Part shown: positions 46,246-51,364 of the stretch, one piece after another
How positions within the stretch are numbered: the first letter of the stretch is position 1
Layout: every line of letters begins with the position of its first letter
Source of the DNA: Pseudidiomarina gelatinasegens
GTDB taxonomy: Bacteria; Pseudomonadota; Gammaproteobacteria; Enterobacterales; Alteromonadaceae
Length of the DNA stretch: 64,000 bases
Assembly (NCBI RefSeq): GCF_004025325.1
Contig: NZ_RSFE01000003.1
Coordinates: 310,001 to 374,000, forward strand
Direction of reading: 5' to 3'
Position numbers and translations under genes: made by a program
The notes under the pieces: generated by a model
Told to the model about the DNA's origin: nothing
Seen by the model: only the letters and a program-made list of their open reading frames with translations
Database searches by the model: none

Positions 46246-47358
46246 ATGGAGATGCCTTCCTGGCGACGCGCTGTACTTAAAGTAGGCAGTGCATTAATCG
46301 CGCCAGACGACGCAGGAACGAGTAGTAAATATTTATTAGCCATAGCTCGATTTATTATCGAGTGTCATGAACGTGGTCAAGAGATAGTTCTTGTCTCATC
46401 AGGCAGTGCTGCTGCAGGCCGGAAGCATATCAGCTATGACGGTGATAAGCTGCCAGTTACCATAAAAAAGGCAATGGCCGCTGTCGGACAAACCGACATG
46501 ATGGCAAATTGGTCGCGGTTTTTTGACTTCTCATGTGCTCAAGTGTTGTTAACACACGGCGACCTGCGTGACCGCGCTCGCTACGTAAGTGTTCGAAACA
46601 CATTACGCACATTGTTAGAACACAATGTATTACCTATCGTAAATGAAAATGACGCACTTGCCACCGACGAAATGAAAGTTGGTGATAACGATAATTTGGC
46701 AGCCATGGTCGCAACCCTAGTTGATGCTGACGCGCTAATTATCTGCTCCGATATTGACGGTCTTTTCGATGCCGACCCTCGGGTTAAACCTGACGCTAAA
46801 AAAATACCGGTCGTCGATGAGATTACTGAAGAAATTTTCGCACTCGCTGGTGGAACAACAAATAAAATAGCAACCGGCGGCATGCGCACCAAGATTGAGG
46901 CAGCCGAGAAAGCAACCTCTCATGGTATCGACACCTATATAGTGAATGGTCGCAAGGGTGCCACGTTTGAGCATTTGCTACGCGGCAACAACCCAGGCAC
47001 ATTATTTAAGCGTCAGCAAGATCCAATGAGTAATAAGAAACATTGGCTTCGTCACACATTAATTTCTCAAGGTGAGTTAGTCATCGATGATGTTTCAGCC
47101 GAGGCACTGAATCGCGGCGAGTCGCTAACAATTAGCGGCATTATAGATGTTCAAGGCGACTTTAACCGTGGCGATGCAGTTGTAATTCGCAGTGCAAGTA
47201 ACGCTGAGGCTATTGGTAAAGGCATTTGCCAATACAGTTCACACGAGTTGATGCATATAAAAGGGCAAGAAGTCAGCGACATCGCTGAAGCTTATGGCTA
47301 CAGCCCTATCTCGGAAGTGATTGAGAGCAACGATTTAATGATTCTGGAGGACGAATGA
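46246..47358 (+). CDS. proB: Glutamate 5-kinase ProB
   Basis: First step of proline synthesis, phosphorylating the gamma-carboxylate of glutamate; the usual point of proline feedback inhibition. It has 370 residues with an amino-acid-kinase domain (RRAVLKVGSALI, VSSGSAAAGR, NENDALATDEMKVGDNDNLAA, ATGGMRTKIEAA) and a C-terminal PUA domain from about residue 275. The VSSGSAAAGR turn is slightly changed from the usual VSSGAIAAG. It overlaps proA by ATGA. A possible translational control element lies just upstream. Confidence 0.95.
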   Translation: MEMPSWRRAVLKVGSALIAPDDAGTSSKYLLAIARFIIECHERGQEIVLVSSGSAAAGRKHISYDGDKLPVTIKKAMAAVGQTDMMANWSRFFDFSCAQVLLTHGDLRDRARYVSVRNTLRTLLEHNVLPIVNENDALATDEMKVGDNDNLAAMVATLVDADALIICSDIDGLFDADPRVKPDAKKIPVVDEITEEIFALAGGTTNKIATGGMRTKIEAAEKATSHGIDTYIVNGRKGATFEHLLRGNNPGTLFKRQQDPMSNKKHWLRHTLISQGELVIDDVSAEALNRGESLTISGIIDVQGDFNRGDAVVIRSASNAEAIGKGICQYSSHELMHIKGQEVSDIAEAYGYSPISEVIESNDLMILEDE

Positions 47359-48608
47359 GTAACCAGTTAGCAGAACAAATTTCACAACGCGCCGCCGTTG
47401 CGGCACGCGCAGTCGCCAATTTATCTGAAGCAAAAAAGAATCAGGTACTACAACGCATGGCTGATGCCATCCGCGACATGCAAAGTGACATATTAGAAGT
47501 TAACGAAAAAGACATGGCTGCAGGCCGTGAGAAAGGCCTCTCTGATGCAATGCTCGACCGCCTGCAACTAAATGCTGAACGCATTGAAGGCATGGCGACA
47601 GCGATTGAAGAAATTATCGAACTGGCCGACCCGGTTGGCGAACGTACGCCATTTGTGACACGCCCAAATGGTATTCAAGTGGACAAAATGAGAATTCCAC
47701 TTGGTGTAATTTGTATGATTTACGAAGCGCGCCCAAATGTAACAGCCGATGCCGGTGCGTTATGTTTCAAATCAGGCAACGCAGTTATCCTGCGTTGTGG
47801 TCGTGAAGCGATTGAAACCAGCAAAGCTATTGCCAAAGCATTACATAAGGCGCTACGTGATAGTGAATTGCCGGAAGATGTTATCACTGTCGTGCCAAGC
47901 CCAGATCGTGAACTTATGACCGAACTGCTAAAACAAGACAAATACATTGATTTGGTCATTCCACGCGGCGGTGAAGGCCTTATCCACTTTGTCAGCGATA
48001 ACAGCAAGATTCCTGTCATTCAGCATTACAAGGGCGTATGCCACTTGTACGTCGACAAAGATGCCGACCAAGAGAAGGCTCTGAACATTTTGCTGAACGG
48101 TAAAACACAACGCACTGGCGTCTGCAACGCTTTGGAAGGATTGGTCGTACATCAAGAAATTGCGACAAGCTTTCTACCCAAAGCCGCTGCGGCATTAGCT
48201 GAAAAGAATGTAATTATTCACGCTGACGCAGCTTCAGCTGAATATTTTGAAGATGCCGATGTGATCGCCGACGACGCGTACGGTGAAGAGTATCTCGCGC
48301 TGGAAATCGCTGTTCGTACAGTTCCTGATTTTGATGCAGCACTGGATCACATCCACACCTTCGGCAGTGGTCACACGGAAGTAATTGTGACTGAGAATCA
48401 AGCCGCTGCAGATCGTTTCATCCGTGAAATTGATTCGGCTGTAACCATGGCAAACACCTCTTCACGATTCAGTGATGGTGGCCAACTTGGTTTAGGTGCA
48501 GAAATAGGTATTTCAACCAGCAAGTTGCACGCTTATGGCCCGATGGGTTTACAAGCGTTAACAACTGAAAAATTCGTGGTTACCGGTGACGGTCAAATTC
48601 GCGAATAG
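47355..48608 (+). CDS. proA: Glutamate-5-semialdehyde dehydrogenase ProA
   Basis: NADPH-dependent reduction of gamma-glutamyl phosphate to the semialdehyde, which cyclises to P5C for ProC. It has 417 residues. Family blocks include RIPLGVICMIYEARPNVTAD, LCFKSGNAVILRCG, IPRGGEGLIHFV and the catalytic Cys in KTQRTGVCNALEGL, then the late SSRFSDGGQLGLGAEIGIST. It is coupled to proB by a 4-bp overlap. Its last 16 bases overlap the 3' end of the convergent waaA-kdkA gene. Confidence 0.96.
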   Translation: MSNQLAEQISQRAAVAARAVANLSEAKKNQVLQRMADAIRDMQSDILEVNEKDMAAGREKGLSDAMLDRLQLNAERIEGMATAIEEIIELADPVGERTPFVTRPNGIQVDKMRIPLGVICMIYEARPNVTADAGALCFKSGNAVILRCGREAIETSKAIAKALHKALRDSELPEDVITVVPSPDRELMTELLKQDKYIDLVIPRGGEGLIHFVSDNSKIPVIQHYKGVCHLYVDKDADQEKALNILLNGKTQRTGVCNALEGLVVHQEIATSFLPKAAAALAEKNVIIHADAASAEYFEDADVIADDAYGEEYLALEIAVRTVPDFDAALDHIHTFGSGHTEVIVTENQAAADRFIREIDSAVTMANTSSRFSDGGQLGLGAEIGISTSKLHAYGPMGLQALTTEKFVVTGDGQIRE

Positions 48609-50617
48609 CCGGCAATAAGTTTGGGCCAATCACGTGTTTCATCCCAATGAAATACTTGATTGGCCTCTGTCGCTTTTGTTAATTCTTTTCTGAACGAACG
48701 CAGCAAACGCTGTATATTTTTCTCGCGCCAATCGCCTTCTGCTCTTATTTCACATTTATCAAAATCAACTATCCAAGCCTTACCTGCGTTATCAAGCATC
48801 AAGTTATGACAATTTAAATCAGAATGATAAACCTGATGGTTGTGTAATTGCTTTATCACCTGCCCAAGACTTTCCCATTCATGGCTTTCTAACTGCCGTT
48901 GTTGGAGCAGTTTAAAAGTGTCCTGAGCATTCGGTATAACTTCGACCAAAATGTCTGCGCGATACCCCCATATTGGGGCCTTAACGTACCGAGCTGCTAC
49001 TGGGCGAGGCACCGGCAGTCCAGCTTCTCGTAGTTTAAGCAGCAATGAAAACTCAGCCATTGCTCGGCTACTGGCAACAGGCTCGCGTTTGAAACGGTCC
49101 GTATTCACTTTGCCCACTAATCCGCCCCGATAATAATGACGGAGCAATAAACCGTGCTCTGCAGCATCAATGAACCACGCAGTGCTGCGTCCGGTAGCAG
49201 AGCCTTTAATTTGGTTGTGAGCACGCCAATATTCCGGATCAAAATAGTCGTTTGTACAATCGCTTAGAACCTCAGGATCGAACCACAAGGTCGTATCGCG
49301 AGTTGGTTTTACCGTTTGCATCATAAACACTGTCCTAGAAGTCGCTGCACCTGTAAACACAGATAGTGTCGCACGAATGTCCGAAAACACTGCGTTGGTA
49401 GCGCCTTGGTCATTGGCAAATTCCTGCGCTGCGTTGTCGGCTAACTGCTTGCAAAGTGCGGGTTGCTCAAGTAATTGATGCCAACTATTGGCGAGTTGAT
49501 CGGCGTTTGAAACCATCATAACGCCATTGGCTTGCTGCAAGCGATCGTAAATGTCCTGAAAGTTAAATATGTGACAGCCAGAAATTACTGGGGTGTGGGT
49601 TGCAACCGGCTCGAGCGGATTGTGCCCGCCGCGCTCGATTAAGCTTCCGCCAACAAAAGCAACATCGGCGAGAGCGTACCACAACAATAGCTCGCCCATG
49701 CTGTCCCCTAAAAACACCTGACTTTGGCTAGCTATGTCCTCGCCACTGCTGCGTCGAACATAAGTAAAACCTGCTTTAGCAATAGCTTCAGCCCCAGCTT
49801 CGAAACGTTCTGGATGGCGTGGCACCAGTATAAGTAATGCGGAGGGGTGATGTTTTTGCAGTTTTCGAAACGCGCTTAGAACTTGTTCATCCTCGCCGTC
49901 GTGTGTGCTTGCCGCTAGTAAAATTAGCCTATTTAGCTGTTCCCGCAAGCGTTCAGCTTCAGCTTTTATCTCATGTGAAACTTGAAAATCGTGCTTTAAG
50001 TTCCCTCTCACCACAACCCGTTCGCTCGACATTCCCAACTCGATAAAACGCGTTCGAGTAGCTTGGGTTTGTGCCGCAATTGCCGTCACTGCAGGCCAGA
50101 TTGGCCCAACGAGCCAACTGTACTTGCGATAGCTTTTAGCCGAGCGCTCCGACAACCGAGCATTAACCACCATCACCGGAACAGCGCGTTGCTGCGCTTG
50201 CTGTAACATACAAGGCCATAATTCAGTTTCTAAGATCACCACCAAGCGTGGCGCAAACTTATCGAAAAAACGACGCATCGAGCCCGGTGTGTCAATCGGT
50301 AAGTAAGCATGGAATACGCGATCGCCAAATAGCTTAACAGCCAGTTCAGCCGCTGTAGGAGTCATCGAGGTTAGTGTAACCCCAAGGTGAGGATAGTCAT
50401 TTAAGATCTGTTCAATTAAGCCTTTAGCCGCGACAGTTTCACCAACTGAAACGCAGTGGATAATAATGCCATCGCGCGCCTGCACCGGAACATCTTGCAG
50501 CGCCAGCCGCTCAGGCCAACGCTGCCGATATGCTGGAGCCTTTCTACTACGCACCCACAAATATATAAATACCAATGGGGTTATGCAGCGAATCAGCAGC
50601 CGATAAGCAAATGTCAT
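48593..50617 (-). CDS. waaA-kdkA: Fused Kdo transferase (WaaA) - Kdo kinase (KdkA)
   Basis: One uninterrupted 674-codon frame joins two LPS-core enzymes. Residues 1-421 are WaaA (KdtA): an N-terminal membrane anchor (RLLIRCITPLVFIYLWV), catalytic Glu60 in SVGETVAAKGL, ETELWPCM, VVNARLSERS, and GGSLIERGGHNPLEP of the GT-B C-domain. Residues about 433-674 are KdkA: IKGSATGRSTAWF, RHYYRGGL, the kinase catalytic loop YHSDLNCHN (Asp600, Asn605) and the metal site VDFDKCE (Asp618). Normally these are two proteins, of about 425 and 240 residues. The junction has Met432-Met433 preceded by AGGA at 8 nt (49333-49336), so internal initiation of a free kinase is conceivable. It follows a glycosyltransferase-like gene by 6 bp. 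Confidence 0.93.
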   Translation of the reverse strand: MTFAYRLLIRCITPLVFIYLWVRSRKAPAYRQRWPERLALQDVPVQARDGIIIHCVSVGETVAAKGLIEQILNDYPHLGVTLTSMTPTAAELAVKLFGDRVFHAYLPIDTPGSMRRFFDKFAPRLVVILETELWPCMLQQAQQRAVPVMVVNARLSERSAKSYRKYSWLVGPIWPAVTAIAAQTQATRTRFIELGMSSERVVVRGNLKHDFQVSHEIKAEAERLREQLNRLILLAASTHDGEDEQVLSAFRKLQKHHPSALLILVPRHPERFEAGAEAIAKAGFTYVRRSSGEDIASQSQVFLGDSMGELLLWYALADVAFVGGSLIERGGHNPLEPVATHTPVISGCHIFNFQDIYDRLQQANGVMMVSNADQLANSWHQLLEQPALCKQLADNAAQEFANDQGATNAVFSDIRATLSVFTGAATSRTVFMMQTVKPTRDTTLWFDPEVLSDCTNDYFDPEYWRAHNQIKGSATGRSTAWFIDAAEHGLLLRHYYRGGLVGKVNTDRFKREPVASSRAMAEFSLLLKLREAGLPVPRPVAARYVKAPIWGYRADILVEVIPNAQDTFKLLQQRQLESHEWESLGQVIKQLHNHQVYHSDLNCHNLMLDNAGKAWIVDFDKCEIRAEGDWREKNIQRLLRSFRKELTKATEANQVFHWDETRDWPKLIAGYSRI

Positions 50618-50623
50618 CTTCGC

Positions 50624-51364
50624 TTAACGCCAGTATTCTTTAATCCAAGTGGTTGGCAAAACCTTTCTATACCACTTCCCACTACGCCCTGCCACTGCGT
50701 CATCAGGGTGTGGACGCCCGTGAAATATAATCACTTTAGCGCCGGCAGGAATGCGCGGTTGTTGAAAAAAGCTAAGCGGGAATGGCCGCAAACAGTGGCG
50801 CTTAAAGCTACGACACCACTCAGCTGGCCAGTACTTCAACTTGCCTTGGCGTGCTACAAACTGCGTAATGAACTCTTGTTCATTACGAACGTCTTTACGT
50901 GAACCTACCGGATCATTCTTCAGATGTTCGAGAGCATCCACATGGGCGCCAATATTAAATCGAAATACCGACGTATTGCCGGTCGCATCAGATTTATCCC
51001 ATTCTTTGATAACCAAGAAGTCGCCTTCAGGCTCAAAGAACTCGTCTAAACTGCCAACAATTACTATATCAAGGTCGAGAAAAAGGGTTGGCCCTTGCAA
51101 GTCATACAGCGGGTCGGCAAAACAAGTGAGCTTTAACCAACCATGCGCGAACGTCCATGGTTTACGTTGATCAAAGTCTTCAAAACCAATTTCCGGTATC
51201 GGCTTCACCTCAACTTCGTCGCGAATGCCTTCAGCATCGTCAGTCAAGCACACGAATCGAAACGGCAATGAAATATTGCGACTAACCATCGAATACAATG
51301 TATTGACGTAATCCGACCCGTATTTCTTACCCCACTTTATACAAATGATGTTAACTGGCTGCAT
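50624..51364 (-). CDS. Glycosyltransferase-like protein (DxD motif), probable LPS core enzyme
   Basis: 246-residue protein with no signal peptide or membrane span. It opens MQPVNIICIKWGKKYGSDYV with a likely nucleotide-sugar-binding strand, has VCLTDDAEG, and carries a DxD metal motif in LFLDLDIVIVGSLDEFF, the arrangement seen in GT-A-fold transferases related to GT8-like and capsule or core enzymes. Late FNIGAH and VIIFHGRPHPDD resemble the distal active-site histidine of such enzymes. I do not recognise an exact orthologue. Its position directly upstream of waaA-kdkA suggests core oligosaccharide assembly; this is inference. RBS AGGA precedes the ATG. Confidence 0.65.
   Translation of the reverse strand: MQPVNIICIKWGKKYGSDYVNTLYSMVSRNISLPFRFVCLTDDAEGIRDEVEVKPIPEIGFEDFDQRKPWTFAHGWLKLTCFADPLYDLQGPTLFLDLDIVIVGSLDEFFEPEGDFLVIKEWDKSDATGNTSVFRFNIGAHVDALEHLKNDPVGSRKDVRNEQEFITQFVARQGKLKYWPAEWCRSFKRHCLRPFPLSFFQQPRIPAGAKVIIFHGRPHPDDAVAGRSGKWYRKVLPTTWIKEYWR

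Follow-up and report, generated by a model that had tools for sequence, protein, structure and literature searches.

A clade-wide fusion of the Kdo transferase WaaA and the Kdo kinase KdkA in Pseudidiomarina, with a probable internal start for a free kinase

The fused gene and its domains

Within a 64,000-nucleotide stretch of Pseudidiomarina gelatinasegens contig NZ_RSFE01000003.1 (hereafter the window), the open reading frame listing identified a single 674-codon frame on the minus strand at positions 48593 to 50617, with an ATG start and zero internal stops, which joins the Kdo transferase WaaA to the Kdo kinase KdkA. The features of this locus, in window coordinates, are as follows.

50624 to 51364, minus strand: conserved gene of 246 amino acids, 6 bases upstream of the fusion; a proposed glucosyltransferase, from gene context
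48593 to 50617, minus strand: waaA-kdkA fusion gene, 674 codons, from the open reading frame and profile matches
49364 to 50611, minus strand: WaaA part, residues 3 to 418, by NF004388, with an N-terminal helix at residues 3 to 26 in the predicted model
49333 to 49336, minus strand: AGGA, a Shine-Dalgarno (SD)-like element at the seam, from the sequence
49319 to 49324, minus strand: Met432-Met433, predicted internal start codon or codons of a free kinase, from seam sequence and conservation
48602 to 49306, minus strand: KdkA part, residues 438 to 672, by NF002475

Both NCBIfam profiles matched above their cut-offs and over nearly their whole length, as expected from the proposal in an earlier note on this DNA that a complete WaaA and a complete KdkA share one frame: NF004388 scored 496 bits against a cut-off of 438 (residues 3-418, profile positions 5-421 of 425), and NF002475 scored 272 bits against 142 (residues 438-672, profile positions 7-236 of 241). 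Pfam searches placed Glycos_transf_N at residues 32-210 (200 bits) and the Kdo kinase family at 462-671 (153 bits). In the numbering of the fusion, the WaaA glutamate is Glu60, the aspartate of the HSDLNCHN motif is residue 600, VDFDKCE begins at 617, and the seam methionine pair occupies 432-433. The glutamate and kinase motifs that the note had described as retained are present, and SVGE Glu60 together with kinase residues D600, N602, D618 and D620, which cover the catalytic aspartate and the DFD metal motif, proved invariant among 17 aligned fusions from several genera. In an alignment with Aquifex WaaA (2xci), the top solved-structure match to the fusion, Glu60 falls on the SIGE motif, and we take the glutamate of this S-(I/V)-G-E motif to be the catalytic residue.

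An AlphaFold model of the fusion had a mean pLDDT of 87.5, with weak stretches at about 421-430, between the domains, and at 498-505; the modelled helix at residues 3-26 is likely a membrane anchor. The fusion has a computed mass of 76.5 kDa and a 243-residue kinase begun at Met432 one of 28.4 kDa, close to the products of ~75 and ~27 kDa foreseen from the sequence. At its 3' end the fusion gene overlaps the 3' end of a gene on the plus strand (47355-48608), presumably proA, by 16 bases (48593-48608).

Distribution and origin of the fusion

The full fusion was identified in 26/26 Pseudidiomarina genomes (genus g1), with the 25 others at 54-67% identity, and in 0/33 other relatives compared beside this set. 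The junction, at which a stop or frameshift had been considered, is read through without a break in each of the 25 other Pseudidiomarina genomes and in 76 fusions overall; since the unbroken frame recurs in 25/25, the fusion is not a sequencing slip or a product of chance. A profile built from 17 fusions and run over 295 sampled genomes of the family recovered the full-length fused frame in 65 of them, belonging to 7 of 52 genera: g1 (15/15), g311 (15/15), g337 (14/15), g320, taken here to be Idiomarina (14/15), g334 (5/6), g340 (1/1) and g304 (1/13). These 65 and 11 further g1 genomes form the set of 76 fusions analysed below, all of which are single frames. The fusion is thus genuine and clade-wide, and is not peculiar to the P. 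gelatinasegens genome.

Outside the family, no fused frame was found among the matches listed for an order-level sample of 394 genomes, nor was a WaaA-KdkA fusion detected by KdkA frame length in a class-level sample of 369 genomes, 95 of which exceeded the KdkA cut-off. Separately, a 951-codon KdkA frame in one genome (G119) was considered as a second fusion type and rejected, because its waaA is convergent on the opposite strand. One g337 genome given as 99% complete (G674) had zero match to the fusion profile, through either an assembly gap or real loss.

Phylogenetic reconstruction revealed a more complex history than a single joining event. On a joint WaaA+KdkA tree built by a quick search from 105 genomes carrying both genes, with KdkA-only and WaaA-only loci set aside, the fused state needs five changes, all five of which are forced by branches with SH-aLRT of at least 95. 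The g340 fusion is placed among unfused genera, and the remaining 75 fusions share a clade of 82 rows with 7 unfused ones, six of g304 and one of g320 (G639). On single-domain trees of 54 chosen rows each, a single fused clade was rejected (AU p 0.0001 for WaaA and 4e-22 for KdkA) and g340 stands apart in both; well-supported branches of the KdkA tree force only four of six changes. Since the domain trees reject one fused clade, the fusion arose at least twice, and inside the main clade there was fusion followed by splitting or re-fusing.

Among unfused relatives, the waaA stop and the kdkA start share an ATGA at two loci (L188 and L189), and at a third (L173) kdkA begins ten bases beyond the stop; an SD-type site precedes all three of these kdkA starts. 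These overlapping or closely spaced genes suggest a tandem waaA-kdkA as the precursor, from which the fused gene would have been born by loss of the intervening stop.

In two unfused g304 genomes, G533 and G608 (L187/L191 and L190/L192), WaaA groups with g304 and KdkA with the fused KdkA of g311 and g334. An upstream-type gene also lies ~1.5 kb from kdkA in both, and it may have been acquired jointly with the kinase.

A start-like signal at the domain seam

An AGGA eight bases upstream of Met432-Met433 had been reported in the earlier note, which tentatively raised the prospect of an internal start for a free kinase. The element does lie 8 bases 5' of the Met432 ATG. In P. gelatinasegens it is a short SD match, and its significance was assessed across the 76 fusions by a tetramer test devised after the seam had first been inspected, in which 51/76 carry a seam ATG with an SD tetramer, versus 5.7 expected from synonymous recoding. 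By genus, observed counts (with recoding expectations in brackets) were 26/26 for g1 (3.3), 14/14 for g320 (1.3), 5/5 for g334 (0.3), 4/15 for g311 (0.1), 1/1 for g304 (0.1), 1/14 for g337 (0.6) and 0/1 for g340 (0). Before other internal ATGs of the fused genes, an SD tetramer occurred in 16/718 cases. A hybridisation-energy version of the recoding test was weaker, with a median p of 0.076 for g1 and 0.15 for g320.

Closer inspection of the Pseudidiomarina seams points to conservation at the nucleotide level, which lends weight to the tentative internal start. The arginine of the RTxxM seam is encoded by AGG in 17/17 g1 genes, whereas AGG accounts for 20/1247 arginine codons elsewhere in g1 genes, and the remaining nine g1 seams, in which the peptide is altered, keep the SD tetramer and ATG at a different spacing. 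Between the P. gelatinasegens fusion gene and 13 other genes, third-base agreement at fourfold sites was 19-33%, with 25-26% expected at saturation; with such sites saturated across the genus, kinship does not explain the conservation of the seam.

These observations bear on an alternative in which the fused protein alone is made, and the seam SD element and methionine are either leftovers of an unfused kdkA or are retained for the sake of the linker peptide. Consistent with it, 25/76 fusions manage without the signal (18 of these 25, including the g340 fusion, lack any seam ATG), so that the fused protein alone can suffice, and unfused relatives have an element of this kind at a genuine start. 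However, a leftover would be expected to decay where fourfold sites are saturated, and selection on the linker would not account for an invariant AGG where five other codons would preserve the peptide, nor for the nine genes that have a changed peptide and still possess the SD element and ATG. We regard this alternative as unlikely.

The literature contains the idea that ribosomes pause at internal SD-like sites, and the location of the element at the domain boundary would suit a role in slowing the ribosome, giving WaaA time to fold ahead of KdkA synthesis, with no start function involved. An in-frame ATG would be needless for such pausing, yet 51/51 counted seams have one at start-like spacing, in a count that required an ATG by design and in which tetramers lacking one cannot appear. 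Only a very small share of our expectation rests on pausing.

The seam is probably a working internal start, given that an SD element and start codon of kdkA's own have been retained there; in addition to the 76-kDa fusion, ribosomes would also initiate at this site to yield a free kinase of 243 residues and ~28 kDa. At three g337 loci (L153-L155) with no seam ATG, an AGGAG-type element (energies -6.6 to -10.3) precedes a TTG that may serve as another internal start. By eye, the fusion's own ATG, 6 bases past the stop of the upstream gene, has no AGGA-like element (50618-50632), unlike the seam start, which has a separate SD element; translation of the fusion may for this reason be coupled to that of the upstream gene.

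Predicted product, gene context and known systems

We consider it likely that the locus encodes a two-domain inner-core enzyme giving Kdo4P-lipid A, plus free KdkA from the seam start. At the inner membrane, the WaaA part would transfer a single Kdo to the precursor of lipid A, and the KdkA part would phosphorylate that Kdo at O-4, yielding Kdo-4-phosphate-lipid A in a heptose-free core. We infer that the fused protein is catalytic in both steps, which its two domains might couple through channelling. A chemical precedent for the lipid A-Kdo-phosphate inner core forecast in the earlier note is provided by the lipooligosaccharide (LOS) of Idiomarina zobellii KMM 231T, which the available account gives as Neu-Glc-Kdo4P-lipid A, with one Kdo, a phosphate on O-4 and no heptose, as established by NMR (PMC9695755). 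Because g1 and g320 sit together on the joint tree, this LOS represents the predicted product in a neighbouring genus.

A further alternative is that the WaaA part adds two Kdo residues or that the kinase part uses another substrate, so that the product is not Kdo-4-phosphate. Mono- and bifunctional WaaA are not distinguishable by sequence alone, which leaves room for it; however, 17 fusions show no variation in the kinase motifs and the domain scores as a Kdo kinase equivalog, and the LOS of the neighbouring genus has a single Kdo whose phosphate occupies O-4, the attachment place for a second Kdo according to the accessible text (PMC9695755, PMC10743493). We find this alternative highly improbable.

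The gene content of Pseudidiomarina agrees with a heptose-free core of the kind predicted for the fused enzyme. Two families of heptose genes are absent from the genus: PF01075 heptosyltransferases were found in 0/26 Pseudidiomarina genomes and in 27/33 other relatives, and HldE (TIGR02198) exceeded its cut-off in 0/26, with weak matches only, and in 27/33 other relatives. Within g320, PF01075 is absent from the 14 fused genomes and present in the single unfused genome, G639, in which it adjoins the waaA-kdkA pair (L173) and the upstream-type gene is absent, as though the cassette had been swapped in its entirety. Absence of heptose genes does not follow from the fusion itself: PF01075 is present in 15 fused genomes from g311 and g337 and missing from the unfused genomes of g304.

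The 246-residue upstream gene adjoins the fusion in 26/26 g1 and 14/14 fused g320 loci, and lies within ~2 kb of it at 5 g334, 4 g311 and 3 g337 loci. Its conservation within the genus (82-97%) is far above that of the fusion. The protein had zero matches to Pfam or NCBIfam families, a profile search of PDB sequences returned a best E of only 0.4, and its predicted structure is poor (mean pLDDT 49). Across 71 genomes, 31 carried this gene only, 17 PF01075 only, 0 both and 23 neither. Gene context and the I. zobellii LOS structure underlie our proposal that the upstream protein is a glucosyltransferase, which may add glucose to Kdo-4-phosphate. More tentatively, and with somewhat less than even confidence, the locus could be viewed as a heptose-free inner-core assembly line, in which the upstream glycosyltransferase would place glucose on O-5 of Kdo4P in place of heptose and act beside a fusion gene with two products. 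Among the 76 fusions, 50 have both the internal start and the upstream gene, 1 the start only, 3 the gene only and 22 neither; at one locus (L174) the upstream-type gene is located elsewhere in the genome. On the tree this link reduces to 4 independent pairs (sign test, median p 0.25), and an association of the internal start with the upstream gene is not established.

These findings concern a gene pair that was fused on at least two occasions and whose kinase start is retained in about two thirds of the fused genes examined. The transferase and kinase genes of Bordetella pertussis both resisted removal, according to the available text (PMC10743493), which makes the balance of Kdo transfer and phosphorylation a real question. 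Related marine bacteria offer natural variants for its study (fused with the start, fused without it, and unfused), for which the published I. zobellii LPS structure is available as a comparison, and the upstream gene at this locus is a candidate for attaching glucose to Kdo where the core lacks heptose.

The WaaA and KdkA families and their joint product are already known; the fused form is apparently undescribed, as no description of a WaaA-KdkA fusion was found in the literature searched, which lay largely outside subscription journals. The fused lpxC/fabZ of Bacteroidetes and others likewise joins adjacent genes of lipid A synthesis; it involves other enzymes, and the accessible part of its description does not mention an internal start (PMC3087551). 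As far as the available account extends, I. zobellii LOS has the same inner core as that predicted for the Pseudidiomarina fusion, the evidence in the former being a chemical structure, with no genes named (PMC9695755). In Haemophilus influenzae and B. pertussis, the accessible accounts describe the transfer of one Kdo that is then phosphorylated at O-4 (PMC3078933, PMC10743493, PMC4702295). WaaA and KdkA are separate proteins in those species, whereas in Pseudidiomarina they form one polypeptide, probably accompanied by a free kinase.
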